In this document: in pieces, positions 5,525 to 53,039 of the stretch
Position numbering within the stretch: position 1 is the first letter of the stretch
How the letters are laid out: each line of letters opens with the position of its first letter
DNA from: Christensenellaceae bacterium
GTDB lineage: Bacteria > Bacillota > Clostridia > Christensenellales > Aristaeellaceae
DNA: 64,000 nucleotides
Direction: 5' to 3'
Assembly (NCBI GenBank): GCA_020025205.1
Contig: JAHHSO010000006.1
Span: 23,507 to 87,506 of the forward strand
Notes under the pieces: model-generated
The model's input: only the letters and a program-made list of their open reading frames with translations
Told to the model about the DNA's origin: nothing
Databases searched by the model: none
Program-made: the position numbers and the translations under genes

Positions 5525-7816
5525 TCAGTCCTGCTCGTCGTCCTGTTCCTCTTCGTGTTCGCAGCCTTCCAGCGTGACTTTGCGCCCGCTGAGGTTCAAA
5601 GTCAGCGTGTCGCCGGACAGAAGCCGAAGTCCCGTCCCCTCGCGGGAAACGCTAACTTCAATCAGACGGCCGCGGTAAATCACTTTGAATGCGTAGCCGT
5701 CCCAGCCTTCGGGCAGTTTCGGATCAAAGGACAGTTCGCCCGACAGCGTGCGCATGCCTGCAAATCCCTGCACGATGGACAGCCAGCTGCCGGCCATGGA
5801 TGTGATGTGCAGGCCGTCGGCGGTGTCGTTGTTGATGTTGTCCAGATCGAGCCGCGCGGTTCGCTGATAGAGTTCCTGCGCTTTGTCCAGCTTGCCCAGG
5901 CTGGCTGCAAGGATGCTGTGTACGCAGGGCGACAGACTGGACTCGTGAACGGTCATCGGCTCATAGAAGTCGAAATTGCGGCGGATGGTCTCCTTGTCAA
6001 ATTCGGGCTCAAGGAAGTACAGCCCTTGAAGCACATCGGCCTGCTTGATGAAGCAGGAGCGCAGAATCCTGTCCCAGCTCCACTTCTGGTTGAGCGGCAG
6101 ATCCTGCTGGGACAGGCTGGATACCGGACGCAGATCCTTGTCCATGAATGTGTCGTGCTGGACGAAGATGCCCAGTTCTTCGTCATACGGCAGATACATC
6201 TTCTGCGCAATTTCACGGAACCTGCGGATTTCCTCGGCGCTGACACCGAGTTTCTGCGCCTTTTCGCGTGGGACGAGCATCAGCTGTTCAGCGGTGTAGG
6301 ACAGTTCCCACGCCGTCATGCGGTTGGTATACCAGTTGTTGTTGACGTTGTTTTCGTACTCATTGGGGCCTGTGACGCCGTGGATCATATACTGGCCCTT
6401 GCGTGCGCTGTAGTGGACACGGCCTGCCCAAAAGCGTGCGATGCCCAGAAGAACATCAATGCCATATTCATCCAGATAGCTGCGATCGCCGGTATACTGC
6501 GTGTAGGCATAAATCGCATAGGCAATGGCATTATTGCGGTGAATTTCTTCGAATGTGATTTCCCATTCGTTGTGGCATTCGATGCCGGTGAAGGTGACCA
6601 TGGGAAAGAGCGCTCCGGGCAGCCCCTGCTGGCGTGCATTGTGGTAAGCTCCGGGCAGCTGATCGTAGCGGTACATCAGCAGGCTCCGGGCGACATCTTC
6701 GCCTGCGATGGCGGTGTACAGGGGCAGGCAGTAAGCCTCTGTGTCCCAATAGGTTGCGCCGCCGTACTTTTCGCCGGTGAAGCCTTTTGGCCCGATATTC
6801 AGGCGTGCATCCTCTCCATAATAGGTTGAGAAGAGCTGGAAGATATTGAACCGGATGCCCTGCTGACAGGCTGCGTCGCCGTCGATGCGGACATCTGCTT
6901 TCTCCCAGCGGCGTGCCCAGCCTCGTTCCTGTTCTCTGCGAAGGGCGTCATAACCGACGGTCTGCGCCGCCAGAACGCCCGTGCGGGCGCTGAGCTGGAG
7001 GGCTTCTTCCTGATGGTCGCGGCTGGTGCAGACGCAAACGAACTTGTCGCATCCAACCGTCTGGCCGGGCTGAATATCAAAGACAAACTTGCGGGAAACG
7101 AAGCCGTTGTCCGTATCGTCCCTGACCTTGTGCGCAGCACCGAAGGGCGTTGTGGTCATGGCGGAGCAGACAGAAAAGCGCGGCGTGTCAAACGGATTTT
7201 CTTTTGTGCGCACGCTCACAGTCATGGCGCCCTGCTTGTCGGAGCTTTCGCCTTCAAAGTCCCAGAATGTTTCATTGTAGTTGCTGTCTTCGTTTAAGAC
7301 ATCTGCGTCAATGGCGGCAATCAGCGCCACTTTGCAGGCATAGTCGGCCGTAACGCGGCAGCGGATGGCGAGCAGCTCCGGCCGCGCGACGGACACGAAG
7401 CGCTCAAAACGGACATAAACCGTTCCGCCCTTGCGGCGCACAGAGAATTCGCGGGAGAGGATGCCCGTGTGCATGTCAAGCGTCCGGGTAAAGGAGAGGG
7501 GATCTTCCGTGCCCAGGTCAATATCCTCGCGGTCGATGCGTACACGCAGGGACAGGATGTTCATGGCGTTAATGACTTTGCCGAAGTAGAGCGGATAGCC
7601 ATTTTTCCACCAGCCTACGCGTGTCTTGTCTGGAAACCAGATGCCCGCCAGATAGGTTCCGCGGTGGCTGTCGCCGGAGTATCGTTCTTCAAAGTTGCCG
7701 CGCATGCCCATGTGACCGTTTCCGATGGAGGTCATGGATTCGGCAAGGCGCATATCGTCCCGGTGCAGCTCATTTTCTATGAGTTTCCAGGGATCATAAG
7801 CAAAAATCGTCTTCAT
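5525..7816 (-). CDS. GH65 disaccharide phosphorylase, probable maltose phosphorylase
   Basis: A 763-residue glycoside hydrolase family 65 enzyme that splits an alpha-linked glucose disaccharide with phosphate, releasing beta-glucose-1-phosphate and glucose. The order is the family order: N-terminal beta-sandwich, linker helices, (alpha/alpha)6 barrel and a C-terminal beta-sheet domain. The catalytic acid is Glu486 in HGVTGPNEYENNVNNNWYTN, a stretch close to maltose phosphorylases; an FxxWDTE-like YWDTEAYCLP lies before it. Kojibiose, nigerose or trehalose phosphorylase activity cannot be excluded. The C-terminus ends in an unusual acidic Glu/Asp/Gln tail. Start is ATG 7816; it stands alone between other operons. 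Confidence 0.88.
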   Translation of the reverse strand: MKTIFAYDPWKLIENELHRDDMRLAESMTSIGNGHMGMRGNFEERYSGDSHRGTYLAGIWFPDKTRVGWWKNGYPLYFGKVINAMNILSLRVRIDREDIDLGTEDPLSFTRTLDMHTGILSREFSVRRKGGTVYVRFERFVSVARPELLAIRCRVTADYACKVALIAAIDADVLNEDSNYNETFWDFEGESSDKQGAMTVSVRTKENPFDTPRFSVCSAMTTTPFGAAHKVRDDTDNGFVSRKFVFDIQPGQTVGCDKFVCVCTSRDHQEEALQLSARTGVLAAQTVGYDALRREQERGWARRWEKADVRIDGDAACQQGIRFNIFQLFSTYYGEDARLNIGPKGFTGEKYGGATYWDTEAYCLPLYTAIAGEDVARSLLMYRYDQLPGAYHNARQQGLPGALFPMVTFTGIECHNEWEITFEEIHRNNAIAYAIYAYTQYTGDRSYLDEYGIDVLLGIARFWAGRVHYSARKGQYMIHGVTGPNEYENNVNNNWYTNRMTAWELSYTAEQLMLVPREKAQKLGVSAEEIRRFREIAQKMYLPYDEELGIFVQHDTFMDKDLRPVSSLSQQDLPLNQKWSWDRILRSCFIKQADVLQGLYFLEPEFDKETIRRNFDFYEPMTVHESSLSPCVHSILAASLGKLDKAQELYQRTARLDLDNINNDTADGLHITSMAGSWLSIVQGFAGMRTLSGELSFDPKLPEGWDGYAFKVIYRGRLIEVSVSREGTGLRLLSGDTLTLNLSGRKVTLEGCEHEEEQDDEQD

Positions 7817-35157: not shown

Positions 35158-35225
35158 GAAAGAAAAGTCTCAAAACGTGCGGCCAGTCCAGAATGCCGCC
35201 GCAGGATGGATGGAGTGTTTTTTTG

Positions 35226-37166
35226 ATGGTTCTCAAGCATGATACGCTGGATGATTTTTACCGCACGCCGCGGGGGGCTTTGCCAGCAGGGGCACAGGTT
35301 CGTCTGCGCGTGGCTATAGAGGAATGCCCCGCACTGGAACGCGTTGAAATGCGCGGCTGGACGGACAGGGAATATCGTTTTCCGATGCGCAAACTGGGCA
35401 TACGAAACGGCGAAACGATTTATGAAGTGCAGGTGACGGTCAATCAGGAGCCGGGGCTGCATTGGTATCGGTTCGAGGCATTTGCTGATGGGCAGCGATA
35501 TGTCCTGGGGGCACCCGGCGATCATACCGGCTGCGGCAGGGGCATCATGGGCAGCGAAGAGAGTTTCCAGATCACAGTCTATGATGCAGACTACCAGACG
35601 CCGTCGTGGATGCATGAGGGAATCATGTATCAGATCATGGTGGATCGTTTCTTCCATGGCGAAGGGACGGATGAACTGCTGTCCGCCAAAGATGGGCAGA
35701 ATATCATCCTCCATACGGACTGGAACGAAATGCCTGTGCTGAACATCTCCGAGAATGGGGACAACTTTGCCAATGACTTTTTTGGAGGCAATCTCGAAGG
35801 CGTTCGCCAGAAGCTCTCTTATCTGAAGAGCATGGGCATCAGCATCCTGTATTTTAACCCGATTTTTCTTGCCAGAAGCAATCATAAATATGACACAAGC
35901 GACTACATGCAGGTTGACCCGATGTTTGGGGACGAGGAAGCGCTGAAGCGGTTATGCGATGAAGCAGGCAAACTGGGCATCCGCGTGATGCTGGACGGCG
36001 TATTTTCGCATGTGGGCGATGACAGCATTTATTTTAACCGCCGCGGCACGCACGGCGAGAAGACAGGCGCATACAGAGACCCTGACTCACCGTATAAAAA
36101 ATGGTTCACATTCAAGCGGTGGCCGAAGGAATATGAGTGCTGGTGGGGCTTTAAGACGCTGCCCAACGTCAACGAAATGGATGAGGATTATCAGAAATAC
36201 ATCCTCACGGGTGAGGATGCGGTTGTCAAGCACTGGCTGCGTGTGGGCGCGAGCGGATGGAGGCTGGATGTTGCAGACGAATTGCCCATGCCCTTCCTGC
36301 GCGAATTGCGCCGACAGGTAAAGAGCGTGTCCAAAGACGAGGCTGTTTTGGGCGAGGTTTGGGAGGATGCCAGCCATAAGGTGACGTATGGTCAAATGCG
36401 CTCGTATGTGCTGGGCGATACGCTGGACAGCGTGATGAACTACCCGCTGCGCGATGTGCTGATTGATTTTTTGATGGGTAGAAAGAACGCGGGCACAACG
36501 GCGCATGAATTGTCCGCTTTACATCAGAATTATCCCAAACCCTTCCTCTATGCGCTGATGAATTTGATGGGCAGCCATGACAGACCCCGCATTCTCAATG
36601 TGCTGGCAGGCAATGATGGAAGCGAAATTCCACGGGCACAGCGTGCCTATCATCAGCTTTCGCAGGAAGAGAGAATGATCGGCGGACTGCGTGAACGCAT
36701 GATGCTGCGCTTTATCCTCAGCGTGCCGGGAATGCCCTGTATTTATTACGCAGATGAAGCGGGGATGGAAGGCTGCGCTGATCCGTTTTGCCGCCGTACC
36801 TATCCATGGGGGAATGAAGATCAGAAGATGATCGCTTATTATCGCCGGTTGATCAGAATGCGCCGGGACAGCCGCGTTTTGCAGACAGGCGAGTGCGATT
36901 TTATTGCCCCGTGCGGCGATGTACTGGGGGTTGTACGGTATATTCACAATGGCGTGGACGCGCTGGGCGAACGCGCCGAAAATGGAATGGCCATTACGTT
37001 CATCAACAGGAGCGCACAGCCTGTTGATGTGTATCTGACAGAGAAGGATGTCATGAGCGCGCAGACACTCGTCAGCGAGCAGAATGAAGTGTTCACGGCG
37101 CGTGCCGGAGCTTTCAGCCTGCGTGTGAATGGTTTGCATGGAACGACATACTTTGGAAAACTGTAA
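35226..37166 (+). CDS. GH13 alpha-glucan hydrolase (neopullulanase/cyclomaltodextrinase-like)
   Basis: A 646-residue alpha-amylase-family enzyme with an N-terminal beta-sandwich of about 120 residues, then the TIM barrel starting HEGIMYQIMVDRFFHG and a C-terminal beta domain. Catalytic residues are Asp348 in GWRLDVADE, Glu377 in LGEVWEDA and Asp452 in GSHDRPR. This layout fits intracellular maltodextrin-debranching or cyclomaltodextrin-opening enzymes acting on imported oligosaccharides. No signal peptide. ATG 35226 is preferred over ATG 35193, which lacks a ribosome site; GGAG lies 10 bases upstream. Confidence 0.9.
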   Translation: MVLKHDTLDDFYRTPRGALPAGAQVRLRVAIEECPALERVEMRGWTDREYRFPMRKLGIRNGETIYEVQVTVNQEPGLHWYRFEAFADGQRYVLGAPGDHTGCGRGIMGSEESFQITVYDADYQTPSWMHEGIMYQIMVDRFFHGEGTDELLSAKDGQNIILHTDWNEMPVLNISENGDNFANDFFGGNLEGVRQKLSYLKSMGISILYFNPIFLARSNHKYDTSDYMQVDPMFGDEEALKRLCDEAGKLGIRVMLDGVFSHVGDDSIYFNRRGTHGEKTGAYRDPDSPYKKWFTFKRWPKEYECWWGFKTLPNVNEMDEDYQKYILTGEDAVVKHWLRVGASGWRLDVADELPMPFLRELRRQVKSVSKDEAVLGEVWEDASHKVTYGQMRSYVLGDTLDSVMNYPLRDVLIDFLMGRKNAGTTAHELSALHQNYPKPFLYALMNLMGSHDRPRILNVLAGNDGSEIPRAQRAYHQLSQEERMIGGLRERMMLRFILSVPGMPCIYYADEAGMEGCADPFCRRTYPWGNEDQKMIAYYRRLIRMRRDSRVLQTGECDFIAPCGDVLGVVRYIHNGVDALGERAENGMAITFINRSAQPVDVYLTEKDVMSAQTLVSEQNEVFTARAGAFSLRVNGLHGTTYFGKL

Positions 37167-40547: not shown

Positions 40548-42359
40548 TTATGTCCGCTTGGAAGGAGAGAGCAGATGGCGAATTTCAAATCCCTTGGAGA
40601 GATTGCCGTGCAGCCGCAGCTGTCCGCTCAGGAATAGTTTATCCACCGTTGTCAGGCCGCGCGCCATGGCAAGCAGGTTGTCAAAGCTGCACTGAACATA
40701 TGCTTCGGCATCCGCCGCAGAAAACGGTTCAACGCGCAGCCTTCCATCGGCATAGCGGATATGGAATGTACCCGCGCCGCGTCCAATGATGGTAATCTGC
40801 ACAACACGCCAGTAATGATCGGCATGCAGGCTGCGGCAAGTGCGCTCATTTTCGATGTAACAGTGTTTGAGCTGCTCAAAAGCCTCGCTGAAGGCAATCG
40901 GTGCGCCTGCGCCCGCGCCGCCGCAGATATCTTCATACATCCGATTATACTGCGCAGCGCTCTTTTCCCACGAAAAGTCCTTGTTCATGCAGCGTATGCG
41001 AAGCGTATCAAACATGGCTTCATTGCCAAAGTAGAGCTTCACAGCTTCCTCAATGGCAAGATACAGATCTTTTGCCTGATAATCGGAGAACGCAAAACCG
41101 TCTCCAATGCCGTCAAAATCCTTGTATGCGCGGACGGAGTCCTTCAAACCGCCCGTCTCGTGGACAATCGGCACCGTGCCATAGCGCATGGCCATCATCT
41201 GGGACAGGCCGCACGGTTCAAAACGTGAAGGCATCAGATACATGTCCGCGCCGGCAAATATGGCAGAGGCCATCGGCTCGTTATAGTCGCTGGAGAAGCC
41301 CAGCTGTCCCGGCCATTGCGTGCGCGCCCAGTTGAAGTAGTCAACATATTTTTGATCGCCCTGCCCAAAGATGATCAGCTGCACGCCCATATCCATCAGC
41401 CCCGGCAGGATCTGGCGGATCAGTTCAATGCCTTTCTGCTCAACAAGGCGCGCAACCGACGCCAGCAAAGGCCATTCCGGCTCCTGAGAAAGACCAAACA
41501 GGCGCTGAATTTCGCGCTTGCAAAGCGCTTTTCCAGCCAGATCGTCCACGGTGAAGTGATACGGGATGAGCGGATCATGCGCCGGGTCATAGTGGCTGGT
41601 ATCAATGCCGTTGAGAATGCCGTACAGCTTAGGGTTGATGATATCCACAACGCCTTGCAGACCATGCGCATAATACGGATAATGAAGCTCTCTTGCATAT
41701 GTTGGTGACACCGTAGACACGGCATCAGCCATCATCATGGCGCCTTTCATCAGGTTGATATCCTGACGGCCTTCATATTCAAAGCTCAAGCCGCCGTGAT
41801 ACCATCCTTCCGGCAGAGCAAACGTGTTTTCCAGTTCGTCCCGGCCAAACTGCCCCTGATAGGCAATATTATGTATGGTATACACTGTTTTGATGCTGCC
41901 AAGCTCTCTATTGAGCACCGCATCATTTTTCAGATAGAGAATAGCCAGAGCCGTCTCCCAATCGTTGCAATGCAGGATATCGGGCAAGCCGCCCAATTGA
42001 GGCAGCAGGGTGATGACGGCGCGGCAGAAGAAGGCAAACCGCAGAGAATCGTCCCCGTAACCATACAGCCGCGGGCGATGGAAGAAATGTTCGTTTTCGA
42101 TGAAATAGACGTTTACACCTTTGAGTTCGCTGTGATACAGCCGACAAGGCAGCTCACGCTGCCCCAGCTGGATGAGGTCGGAACGAATGAGCGTCAAATT
42201 GTCCCCATGGTTCTGGCGGGTACACTGGTACAGCGGAGTGACAATACAAATCTCATCACCAGTATCCTTTAGAGCAGGCGGAAGGGAGAAGGCGACATCC
42301 GCAAGGCCGCCGGATTTGCTGAAAGGTGCGCATTCACTCGTCACAAACAAAATCTTCAT
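40548..42359 (-). CDS. glgA: Glycogen synthase fused to a C-terminal SCP2-like domain
   Basis: A 603-residue GT5 glycogen synthase that extends alpha-1,4-glucan from ADP-glucose. Seen: FVTSECAPFSKSGGLADV with the KxGGL motif at residues 15-19, LHCNDWETAL, and RFEPCGLSQMMAMRYGTVPI, the catalytic E-x7-E. Bacterial GlgA normally ends near residue 480-490. Here about 110 more residues (494-603, bases 40548-40880) follow with an SCP2/sterol-carrier-like pattern: FHIRYADGRLRV, YVQCSFDNLLAMARG and KLFLSGQLRLHGNLSKG. The reading frame is continuous. ATG 42359 is set by the conserved MKILFVTSE start; GAAAGGA is 12 bases upstream. glgB and glgC are not in the window. Confidence 0.92.
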   Translation of the reverse strand: MKILFVTSECAPFSKSGGLADVAFSLPPALKDTGDEICIVTPLYQCTRQNHGDNLTLIRSDLIQLGQRELPCRLYHSELKGVNVYFIENEHFFHRPRLYGYGDDSLRFAFFCRAVITLLPQLGGLPDILHCNDWETALAILYLKNDAVLNRELGSIKTVYTIHNIAYQGQFGRDELENTFALPEGWYHGGLSFEYEGRQDINLMKGAMMMADAVSTVSPTYARELHYPYYAHGLQGVVDIINPKLYGILNGIDTSHYDPAHDPLIPYHFTVDDLAGKALCKREIQRLFGLSQEPEWPLLASVARLVEQKGIELIRQILPGLMDMGVQLIIFGQGDQKYVDYFNWARTQWPGQLGFSSDYNEPMASAIFAGADMYLMPSRFEPCGLSQMMAMRYGTVPIVHETGGLKDSVRAYKDFDGIGDGFAFSDYQAKDLYLAIEEAVKLYFGNEAMFDTLRIRCMNKDFSWEKSAAQYNRMYEDICGGAGAGAPIAFSEAFEQLKHCYIENERTCRSLHADHYWRVVQITIIGRGAGTFHIRYADGRLRVEPFSAADAEAYVQCSFDNLLAMARGLTTVDKLFLSGQLRLHGNLSKGFEIRHLLSPSKRT

Positions 42360-42660
42360 AAAGCAGCTGTTCCTTTCGTATCGGCAGCAAAACGCCGCCA
42401 TTTCCACAAAAATACGATAGATATGCTACTTATATTTTACAGAAAACGGTTTAAAAAGTCAACGATGATGCCCATCTTTCATGCAGATTTTTTGTCAAAT
42501 CAATGTCCATCAAAAAACAGACAGTCAAGTTTTTGAAAGGAGAGGACGATGAAAAAAACGGCCGCTCTTTTTAAATGTGTTTCTACATGGATGCTGCAGC
42601 AAAGGATTGAATACAGTTTTTGTAAATTAAAAGCCGACACAATAGCCGGCGTTTTTAGTC
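42360..42660. other. 301-base gap upstream of glgA
   Basis: Contains the glgA upstream region and, at about 42627-42658, an imperfect GCCGAC / GCCGGC hairpin with flanking A/T runs that may end the XRE transcript. No supported gene. Confidence 0.5.
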
Positions 42661-50209: not shown

Positions 50210-50968
50210 TTACTCCGCCCAGCGCGAAAGGCATTTTTGCATCCACGCGCGCACATCGATCCCATAGACCTCCTGAAGCAGCGTGACATCCAGTTTGTCG
50301 GCAGGGCCTTCATAGCGTGCGCACCCGTCCTGCATGACCAGCAGGCGGTCGGCAAATTCCAATGCAAGGTTGATATCGTGCAGAACACCGACAATGCATC
50401 GGCTGCCCTGCGAAGTCCAGCGTTTTAAAAGCGCAATCAACTCCACCTGATACTGTAAATCCAGGTGGTTGGTGGGTTCATCCAGCAGGATGATGGACGG
50501 CTGCTGTGCGAAGACGCGAGCGAGAAAAACACGCTGGAGCTGACCGCCGGACAGCTGCGTGACCGGCTGGTCGCGCAGGTCGGAAAGGCCGGTCTGAGAA
50601 AGACAGTCTTCGACAATCGCGCGGTCCTCTGCCGATGCGCCGGCAAACAGCCCGCCGCGCTGATGTGCATAGCGGCCCATCATCACCGTGTCATAAACTG
50701 AATAACCAAAGTCTGCACTGCCCATCTGGGTCATCAGCGCCACAGCCTGAGCCGCCTGCTTGCGGGAAGCTCTGCGCATGTCAAGCCCCGCTGCTGTAAC
50801 CGTGCCCTCAAAGGGAAGAAGCCCCGCCAATGCGCGCATCAAGGTCGTCTTGCCGCATCCATTCGGGCCAAGTATAGCCAGCCGCTCCCCTGCATGCAGG
50901 TGAATCTGAACATCACGGACGATCTTCTTTTCACCATAGCCGCAGGAAAGATGCTCTGCGTTGAGCAT
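50210..50968 (-). CDS. btuD: Corrinoid/iron-type ABC transporter ATP-binding protein
   Basis: A 252-residue FecE/BtuD ATPase. Walker A AILGPNGCGKTTLM, signature LSGGQLQRVF, Walker B IILLDEPTNHLDL and the switch His in GVLHDINLALEF are complete. It drives the BtuC-type permease encoded before it. The start ATG 50968 shares one base with the permease stop, so the pair is translationally coupled; GGGGG lies upstream. Cobalamin as substrate is inferred from the riboswitch ahead of the operon. Confidence 0.93.
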   Translation of the reverse strand: MLNAEHLSCGYGEKKIVRDVQIHLHAGERLAILGPNGCGKTTLMRALAGLLPFEGTVTAAGLDMRRASRKQAAQAVALMTQMGSADFGYSVYDTVMMGRYAHQRGGLFAGASAEDRAIVEDCLSQTGLSDLRDQPVTQLSGGQLQRVFLARVFAQQPSIILLDEPTNHLDLQYQVELIALLKRWTSQGSRCIVGVLHDINLALEFADRLLVMQDGCARYEGPADKLDVTLLQEVYGIDVRAWMQKCLSRWAE

Positions 50969-51996
50969 CACTTTTCCCCCTTTCGGCTCGTCCAATACAC
51001 ATAGATGAAGAAGGGCGCACCCAGCAGCGCCGTGATGGAACCGATGGGAATTTCACTGGGAGATGTCAGCGTTCTGGCCGCCAAATCGCACACAACCATG
51101 AATGTGCCGCCAAATACGGCGGACAGAGGAATCAGCGTTTTATGCAATGGGCCGAAGAATCGCCGGACGATGTGCGGAGCAATGAGATCGACAAATCCAA
51201 TGATGCCCACAAAAGCTACACATGTGCCGGTAAGCAGCGAAACAGCGCCAATAAGCATCCATTTCGTGCGCTTGAGGCTGACCCCCAGCGCGGCCGCCTG
51301 CTCTTCACCGAAGGTCATCAAATCCATTTCACGCGCATAGCACGAGAAAAACAGCATGCACAACGGCACAATCAGCGCCACAGGCACTACCTGACGCCAC
51401 TCGCGCGAAGAGAAGCTGCCCAGCTGCCAGAGCGAGATGAGCCGCGTATAATCCGGATTTGTGGCGGCAAGCGTGCTCATGAGCGCATTTAAGAACAGGG
51501 AAAGCACCATACCCGTCAGAATGATGGTGTTGTTGGAAAGACCGCGATCAATTTTCTGGGAGAAAATCATCGCAAACACAACAGCGCCAAATCCGCACAG
51601 CAGGCACACGACAGGCAGCATCACCACACTGCTGCCAAAGCCCCATATGATCATGACCACCGCTCCGAGTCCTGCGCCGCTGGACACACCCAAACCGTAG
51701 CTGGAAGCCAGAGGGTTTTTCAGGACAGACTGCATCACAGCGCCGCTGACCGCCAGCCCGGCACCCGTCAGAAAAGAGAGAAGCACCCGCGGGATGCGGA
51801 TGCTCCATACAAGGCCGGGATAGACGCGGGGGAATCCATCGGGCAGGGGAACGGCAAAGAGCTTGTTCAAAAGCACCCGTCCGATGGCGGCAGGCGGCAC
51901 GGATACGCTGCCCACGCACACTCCTGCCAAAAGAGACAGGAGCGCCGCTAAGATCAATAACGCAGCCTTGCTGCGCGTTTTACTTTTTGAACACAT
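50968..51996 (-). CDS. btuC: Corrinoid-type ABC transporter permease (FecCD/BtuC family)
   Basis: A 342-residue FecCD permease with about ten helices. Seen: IRIPRVLLSFLTGAGLAVSGAVMQ, NPLASSYGLGVSSGAGLGAV, the EEQAAALGV coupling loop, GIIGFVDLIAPHIVR and SPSEIPIGSITALLGAPFF, all standard. ATG 51996 overlaps the end of btuF by 17 bases; earlier in-frame starts lie deeper in btuF and have no ribosome site, so the exact start is uncertain. Confidence 0.93.
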   Translation of the reverse strand: MCSKSKTRSKAALLILAALLSLLAGVCVGSVSVPPAAIGRVLLNKLFAVPLPDGFPRVYPGLVWSIRIPRVLLSFLTGAGLAVSGAVMQSVLKNPLASSYGLGVSSGAGLGAVVMIIWGFGSSVVMLPVVCLLCGFGAVVFAMIFSQKIDRGLSNNTIILTGMVLSLFLNALMSTLAATNPDYTRLISLWQLGSFSSREWRQVVPVALIVPLCMLFFSCYAREMDLMTFGEEQAAALGVSLKRTKWMLIGAVSLLTGTCVAFVGIIGFVDLIAPHIVRRFFGPLHKTLIPLSAVFGGTFMVVCDLAARTLTSPSEIPIGSITALLGAPFFIYVYWTSRKGEK

Positions 51997-52876
51997 CGGG
52001 GTACAGCGCTTCACCCATCTGCCAGAGCGCGAGGGTGATGTTCTCATTGGGCAGAGAAGAGCTCATGTTGTCAATGTAGTAGATGGCATTGTCCTTCACG
52101 GCGGTCACATCAGCCCAGCCGTCGCGGCCAAGGATTTCATCAATCGGGTTATCGATGTAGTTGACATTGGTGAGGATGACATCCGGGTTTGCGCCCACAA
52201 CGGTCTCGGGATCAATGCCAATCCAGCCTTCCTGATCGGCCAGTACATTCTCGGCGCCGACAAGGGAGATCATCTCGTCCATGTAGACGTTGCTGCCGAA
52301 GCTGTAGCAGTAAGGCGCGGCAGAAATTTCAAAGTATACGCTCTTGCGCTCTTCCTCTGGAATGGAATCGCCCAGCTTCTTAATTTCATCCAGCTCGGCG
52401 CGGAGTTCATCGTTGACTTTTACGGCAGCTTCTTCAGCCCCCATCACATCGCCGATGAAGGTGATATCGATGTAGATATCCTCAATGGTGGCGCTGCTGG
52501 GGATGGCGGCGAAGGAAACGCCCAAGTCCACAAGCGGCTGGAAGGGATTTTCTCCGCCAACCAAGCTGATGCCGGAATAAAGCACCATGTCCGGCGCGAG
52601 AACAGCCAGCTGCTCGACATCCGGGGTCATCATGTCGAATGCGGGCAGACCTTCCGGCAGTCCTTCAAGGCCAACGCTGTTTTTATCGATGGCAACAATC
52701 TTATCAGCACAGCCCAAATCAATCAGGGTCTGGGTGATGCTGGGCGCCATGCTGATGACGGTATCAACGGACTCCGGCAGGGTGAATTCGTTTCCGGCGC
52801 GATCGATTTCAGCCAGCGCAGTGAAAGACATCACGGCCAGCGCGAGCGTCAGAACGAGGGCAAAAATTTTCTTCAT
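51980..52876 (-). CDS. btuF: Corrinoid-type ABC transporter substrate-binding protein
   Basis: A 298-residue BtuF/FhuD-type binding protein. The mature part shows VISMAPSITQTLIDLG, LEGLPAFDMMTPDVEQLAVLAPDMV, and ending SSLPNENITLALWQMGEALY. The signal peptide is KKIFALVLTLALAVMSFTALA-E, a signal-peptidase-I type with no lipobox Cys, which is odd for a Gram-positive binding protein. ATG 52876 follows AAAAGGAGAG. First gene of the btuF-btuC-btuD operon behind the cobalamin riboswitch. Confidence 0.92.
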   Translation of the reverse strand: MKKIFALVLTLALAVMSFTALAEIDRAGNEFTLPESVDTVISMAPSITQTLIDLGCADKIVAIDKNSVGLEGLPEGLPAFDMMTPDVEQLAVLAPDMVLYSGISLVGGENPFQPLVDLGVSFAAIPSSATIEDIYIDITFIGDVMGAEEAAVKVNDELRAELDEIKKLGDSIPEEERKSVYFEISAAPYCYSFGSNVYMDEMISLVGAENVLADQEGWIGIDPETVVGANPDVILTNVNYIDNPIDEILGRDGWADVTAVKDNAIYYIDNMSSSLPNENITLALWQMGEALYPDVFKK

Positions 52877-52944
52877 GGGTACTCTCCTTTTCATAAGTCG
52901 TGGGATTGGAGGGACAGCGGGCGCAGCCCGCAGTTTGAGGCAAA

Positions 52945-52978
52945 GCAAAAAAGCTCCCCTCGGTGAAAAGAAGAGCTT
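52945..52978 (-). terminator. Attenuator hairpin between cobalamin riboswitch and btuF
   Basis: On the minus strand AAGCTCTTC pairs with GGGGAGCTT (52951-52978) followed by a T run. It lies between the riboswitch and btuF and is the probable OFF-state terminator. Confidence 0.75.
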
Positions 52979-53039
52979 GGGAAAAACAAATACAGACAGG
53001 GATTCTGTCATGACCGCAGCGTTTAGTCCGTCCGCGCGG

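Follow-up and report, generated by a model that had tools for sequence, protein, structure and literature searches.

The minus-strand gene at 40548-42359 of the window (the whole 64,000-nucleotide stretch of DNA analysed here) encodes a GlgA-type, GT5-family glucosyltransferase whose C-terminal end is confirmed, by sequence and predicted fold, as a full SCP2 domain. Glycogen synthases, familiar from textbooks, keep to one fixed arrangement of domains, and no enzyme of the starch/glycogen-synthase type is known to have a built-in carrier for a lipid acceptor. The function that I favour, tentatively, is that the SCP2 domain, a predicted holder of hydrophobic molecules, presents an acceptor for alpha-glucose units to the GT5 site. 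A conserved GlgA subfamily with a predicted lipid-carrier domain, found mostly in genomes that also have the ordinary enzyme, would mean that gut bacteria connect the chemistry of storage polysaccharides with lipids or with lipophiles of plants. The gene and its parts are arranged as follows:

40548..42359, minus strand: GlgA-SCP2 fusion gene, encoding 603 aa (P0001), ATG start at 42359
40926..42359, minus strand: GT5 (starch/glycogen synthase) catalytic part, residues 1-478 (PF08323, 7.7e-75; TIGR02095, 515 bits)
40905..40925, minus strand: variable linker, about residues 479-485 (model pLDDT below 50 at 481-484)
40551..40904, minus strand: SCP2 domain with its leading helix, residues 486-603 (PF02036, 39.5 bits; AlphaFold model; Foldseek/VIA matches)

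The longest open reading frame of the gene (40548-42407, minus strand) begins with GTG, and the ATG at 42359 is the better start because the relatives mostly open with MKILFV, MNILFV or MRILFV. Ordinary GlgA proteins end at about residue 478, the matches to TIGR02095 and to the NCBI GlgA models running out at 477-484, in keeping with the remark of the first-pass annotation that GlgA normally ends soon after its second Rossmann domain. The roughly 110 extra in-frame residues to which it had drawn attention (494-603) do lie at 40548-40880, and the motifs that it had singled out are present: FHIRYADGRLRV (residues 532-543), SFDNLLAMARG (558-568) and LFLSGQLRLHGNLSKG (575-590).

That this extension resembles SCP2 had been proposed from inspection of the letters, and both a profile search and a structure prediction now bear the proposal out. 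Searched alone, the extension matches PF02036 with 39.5 bits (E 7.6e-10; gathering score 21.3) over profile positions 13-100 of 101; in the whole fusion protein the match scores 35.4 bits and covers residues 513-597. A profile built from 74 orthologous extensions finds the SCP2 proteins of Yarrowia (4jgx, E 2.5e-10) and rabbit (1c44, E 4.2e-9), against only E 0.03-0.05 for the window's extension sequence alone compared with the same two chains. The AlphaFold model of the SCP2 part is confident (pLDDT 84.2, pTM 0.80) and its best PDB matches by Foldseek/VIA are SCP2 proteins, AF_1534 of A. fulgidus (3bn8/3cnu) being among the matching structures. The cut-off of the UbiT model NF047962 was not reached by the fusion protein (26.7 bits versus 46.9). 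Within the SCP2 part G585 and N586 are invariant in 81 of 81 fusions, and G530, G568, G579, L575, K589 and R594 nearly so. Hydrophobic positions, picked after the conservation table had been seen, are conserved through the domain in a pattern equally compatible with a cavity and with a core.

The first-pass annotation had also proposed a search for GT5 plus SCP2 in other genomes, and the fusion does recur there. A scan of GTDB species genomes yielded 172 related stretches, the best 80 of which were kept and make up, with the window, the 81 fusions. All of these best 80 of 172 loci align from residue 1 (one from residue 4) to residues 593-603, and PF02036 is precomputed in 37 of 37 proteins of a region search; the extension is thus present in close relatives, and neither of the refuting outcomes named in the first-pass annotation (no SCP2 match or fold; no extension in close relatives) came about. 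By taxonomy 76 of the 80 loci belong to Bacillota and three to Chloroflexota, with one unplaced, and the record titles of 33 name a ruminant or horse host. Since the 80 loci are the best of 172, less selected scans were added. The fusion was found in 9 of 100 genomes of one family (58-79% identity, reaching at least residue 597); none of the remaining GlgA matches there exceeds 448 bits or extends past residue 509. A second family had it in 2 of 77 genomes and the phylum in 1 of 299 (the centre genome being counted in both); the 150 genomes of a third family gave two fusions, one of them the centre genome's, and one SCP2-less GlgA at 52% identity. These low counts make the GlgA-SCP2 fusion rare and patchy. 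A coming and going of SCP2 among close relatives was considered and set aside, every scan match of at least 58% identity reaching at least residue 597. Nor did any SCP2 protein of this subfamily emerge that stands alone: all 10 inspected of the 56 candidates found look like pieces of GlgA-SCP2, eight with a clear GT5 end and two (P0053, P0065) starting at the last few GT5 residues.

The N-terminal part belongs to GT5 by its sequence. It passes the cut-offs of PF08323 (252.1 bits versus 22.7), of the GT-B second domain (52.3 versus 26.4) and of TIGR02095 (515 versus 328.45). The NCBI equivalog models named 'glycogen synthase GlgA' were not reached (the best, NF001898, at 541 versus 603), and the other listed models, PRK00654, PRK14099 and PRK14098, were likewise below cut-off for the fusion protein. 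K15, H163, R304, K309, E381 and C383 are conserved in 81 of 81 fusions and in all 20 ordinary GlgA proteins aligned; I take these to be GT5 catalytic residues, namely the KxGGL lysine (K15), a histidine (H163), an Arg/Lys pair (R304/K309) and the Glu and Cys of EPCG (E381/C383). At 16 other GT5 positions the fusions are fixed differently from most ordinary GlgA; N132 and E135, which flank D133-W134, are among them.

A tree of the GT5 part only, with 33 fusions (the window and 32 of the 80) and 20 SCP2-less GlgA, unites the fusions in one clade (support 100/100), and the sister of this clade is a small group of SCP2-less GlgA. The nearest SCP2-less protein, the G637 GlgA of 52% identity, joined this sister group when added. 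The simplest history would have SCP2 gained once, at the base of the fusion clade. Some fusions (L021, L024, L026) and several ordinary GlgA (L084-L089) carry C-terminal tails rich in Ala, Pro and Lys.

The relation of the fusion to ordinary glycogen metabolism was assessed in 20 fusion-bearing genomes with 21 fusion genes, a sample from outside the window's own genome. An ordinary GlgA accompanies the fusion in 17 of them, as it does in all nine carriers of the 100-genome sample, in one as a contig-edge piece only. The idea that the fusion serves as sole GlgA is therefore rejected for those 17 genomes; in G014, G017 and G020 it is the only GlgA found. Genes for GlgC/GlgD adjoin the ordinary GlgA in 12 of 20 genomes, and no over-cut-off glgC lies on the contig of any of the 21 fusion genes, so that membership of a glg operon was not found. 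Because ordinary GlgA coexists with the fusion in 17 of 20 genomes, and because glgC/glgD stand beside ordinary GlgA in 12 while no fusion contig has an over-cut-off glgC, the fusion is not the house glycogen synthase; it is a separate GT5 clade. Two oddities of the sample may be recorded: one genome (G006) has two GlgA-SCP2 copies, on contigs 66 and 109, besides an ordinary GlgA, and the ordinary GlgA matches on G009 contig 47 and G018 contig 89 have equal coordinates (1322-2860) and score, perhaps one contig binned twice.

A candidate partner is found next to a minority of the fusions. The commonest neighbour is a GT1 glycosyltransferase of the macrolide-glycosyltransferase type. In 14 of 81 loci it lies upstream of the fusion and on its strand: directly next to it in 12, separated by an epimerase gene in L036 and as a fragment in L005. 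Where over 1300 bp of upstream sequence is available (72 loci), it is present in 13 and absent from 59; the GT1-bearing L003 has 801 bp. Against the TIGR01426 macrolide family (cut-off 260) the GT1 of L002 scores 251.5 bits and that of L040 317.3; members of the family glycosylate small hydrophobic compounds. GT1s related to this one are scarce, occurring in two genomes of a 100-genome sample (E 1e-40) and in one of a 150-genome sample (E 1e-50), and two of those three adjoin a fusion; expressed by carriage, GT1 occurs in 1 of 9 and 1 of 2 fusion carriers versus 1 of 91 and 0 of 148 non-carriers. In the 12 pairs with a whole GT1, its divergence tracks that of the SCP2 part (r 0.87) and the GT5 part (r 0.78), genome kinship included. 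Since some of these loci nearly duplicate one another (their GT1s being up to 99.7% identical), the independent cases are fewer than 14.

In one genome (G013) the fusion gene of L036 sits within a larger cluster:

L102 1-19001 and L103 1-8000 (G013 contig 16): cluster around GlgA-SCP2

It comprises three alpha-L-rhamnosidases, a GH2, two GH43, an apiosidase-like protein, two alpha/beta hydrolases, an AraC regulator, an MFS_2 symporter, the GT1, the epimerase and a second GT1, and looks like a locus for the use of decorated plant glycosides. Rhamnosidase genes are also near the fusion in L040, L041, L043 and L044, so that five GT1 loci have rhamnosidases and, variably, GH2, GH43 and esterases nearby; on the short contig of L039 only a related hydrolase is near the fusion. 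By eye, the N-termini of the rhamnosidases and GH2 have no obvious signal peptide, which suggests that such a cluster would act on imported small glycosides rather than on polymers. An antisense reading frame of 1117 codons that spans the GT1 and GlgA-SCP2 genes (L104 10995-14348, minus strand) is probably an effect of composition.

Most fusion loci have unrelated neighbours, some of them housekeeping genes. An ABC-transporter ATPase recurs in varying places in eight loci and rpoC upstream in six related loci; these were rejected as functional neighbours and taken as chance or shared ancestry, and among glycan-related partner genes the GT1 alone is seen repeatedly, in more than a few loci. The window itself, over its 64 kb, contains no relative of the neighbour GT1, and none of 14 queries from the glycosidase cluster matched it. 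Around its fusion gene are AsnA, an aldose epimerase, a GH13 protein and an HTH gene. The GH13 gene (35193-37166, plus strand) gives partial, below-cut-off matches to debranching enzyme, maltodextrin glucosidase and cyclomaltodextrinase models. Further off are a GH65 glycoside hydrolase/phosphorylase family protein (5525-7816, minus strand) and FecCD permease and periplasmic-binding-protein genes (50968-53011, minus strand), the latter presumably an iron/cobalamin-type uptake system, to judge its substrate by family.

Acceptor presentation is favoured here because SCP2 domains offer a precedent in UbiJ and because a GT1 is the recurrent neighbour. According to PMC6747719, the SCP2 domain of UbiJ holds the hydrophobic intermediates of ubiquinone on which the Ubi enzymes act, and UbiJ is the documented case (PMC6747719, PMC9499169) of an enzyme-associated SCP2 domain that can bind hydrophobic substrates. 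In the fusion protein the SCP2 domain would bind a lipophilic aglycone or glycolipid. Where a GT1 is present, this enzyme would attach the first sugar to the aglycone, which might come, for example, from plant glycosides imported and then cleaved by the rhamnosidases, GH2, GH43 and esterases encoded nearby. The GT5 part would then extend the primed aglycone from ADP-glucose, or another NDP-glucose, to a water-soluble glucosylated product; this is the least secure step. In this reading the SCP2 domain would lie near the GT5 active site; in the full-length model the linker that joins the two parts is of low confidence. Counting against acceptor presentation, 59 of the 72 loci with room for the GT1 are without it, most neighbourhoods are unrelated, the window has neither GT1 nor cluster, and at the six GT5 residues checked the fusions do not differ from ordinary GlgA. 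The plant-aglycone link derives from the minority of loci with a glycosidase cluster and does not extend to the window. A bolder version, which I regard as improbable, is that a hydrophobic plant aglycone (a sapogenin released inside the cell, for instance) is primed by the GT1 and that the GT5-SCP2 protein carries it while polymerising an alpha-glucan onto it, giving a soluble glucan-capped lipophile and a new glycoconjugate pathway of gut anaerobes.

The same intact GT5 residues can be read another way. The fusion could be a lipid-gated glycogen synthase, that is, a second GlgA isozyme that makes ordinary alpha-1,4-glucan and is switched on or off by a fatty acid, acyl-CoA or other lipid bound to SCP2. 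The nearest solved SCP2 structure by profile, 4jgx, was deposited as a fatty-acid-binding protein, and GlgC, present in 17 of the 20 genomes (16 over the cut-off, G016 just below), could supply ADP-glucose. Against this stands the absence of any over-cut-off glgC from the contigs of the 21 fusion genes. No convincing GlgC was found in G010 (best 40 bits), G014 (none) or G017 (23 bits); possible reasons are incompleteness of these MAGs and a sugar donor that is not ADP-glucose. In addition, no lipid-metabolism family is prominent among the neighbour families listed (top 25 on each side), in a survey that covered 65 of 79 upstream ORFs, the 14 left out including the GT1-bearing L003, L041, L043 and L044 and the broken piece in L005, and 73 of 76 listed downstream ORFs. 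Lipid gating is on balance somewhat unlikely. The first-pass annotation had gone further than the SCP2 identity and the fusion, both of which hold, to suggest a lipid input into glycogen synthesis; this part is doubtful, since an ordinary GlgA mostly coexists with the fusion, no fusion contig of the 20 genomes has an over-cut-off glgC, and the commonest neighbour is a GT1 from a family of small-hydrophobic-molecule enzymes.

The linker between the GT5 and SCP2 parts is variable and is modelled with low confidence at full length, and the SCP2 part diverges more quickly than the GT5 part (42.8% versus 69.6% mean pairwise identity). Both features would suit a placement or assembly module, in which SCP2 tethers the synthase to the membrane or to another protein and no soluble ligand takes part in catalysis; SCP2 proteins can organise complexes, as UbiJ does for the Ubi complex (PMC6747719). 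This is unlikely, given that the only glycan-related partner in more than a few loci is a GT1 and that the conserved hydrophobic positions, chosen post hoc, would suit a cavity no less than a core.

Faster divergence of the extension would also be expected of a relic, an SCP2 fold kept only as a stabilising C-terminal cap after lipid binding was lost, and SCP2-like folds do match the C-terminal parts of alkylsulfatases and Eis acetyltransferases. The extension nevertheless is under purifying selection, with dN/dS of 0.15-0.28 in seven of eight comparisons (at dS of 1.4-2.0, near saturation; the eighth was not computable). With the invariant G585-N586, the near-invariant residues named above and the presence of the domain in each of the best 80 of 172 loci, this makes a relic very doubtful. 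Finally, for an artefact of assembly, frameshift or gene prediction no supporting point was found, and the identical in-frame architecture of those 80 loci and of 37 proteins rules it out for practical purposes.

No paper on a GlgA or starch synthase with SCP2 was found in open-licence PMC full text, the one hit being a biofilm paper in which each term occurs once, although the architecture is already visible in the Pfam assignments of the protein collection, and no glucan synthase is among the 50 structure matches listed. The alkylsulfatases SdsA1/Pisa1 (C-terminal part) and the SpnK methyltransferase (residues 21-158), which are among these matches, have catalytic domains different from that of the fusion. 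Bacterial GlgA (GT5, TIGR02095) has the same catalytic domain and the same six checked residues; the fusion differs in adding SCP2 after about residue 485, in forming a separate clade off the glgC contigs, in mostly coexisting with an ordinary GlgA and in falling below the listed equivalog GlgA models. With the SCP2 family (1c44, 4jgx, 3bn8/3cnu) the extension shares a sequence profile and a predicted fold, but here the domain, with its putative cavity and ligand, is joined to a GT5 polysaccharide synthase. A functional parallel is with UbiJ and UbiT, in which an SCP2 domain stands beside enzymes acting on hydrophobic intermediates (PMC6747719); those proteins are separate accessory factors of ubiquinone synthesis, whereas in GlgA-SCP2 the domain is fused to the GT5 enzyme itself.
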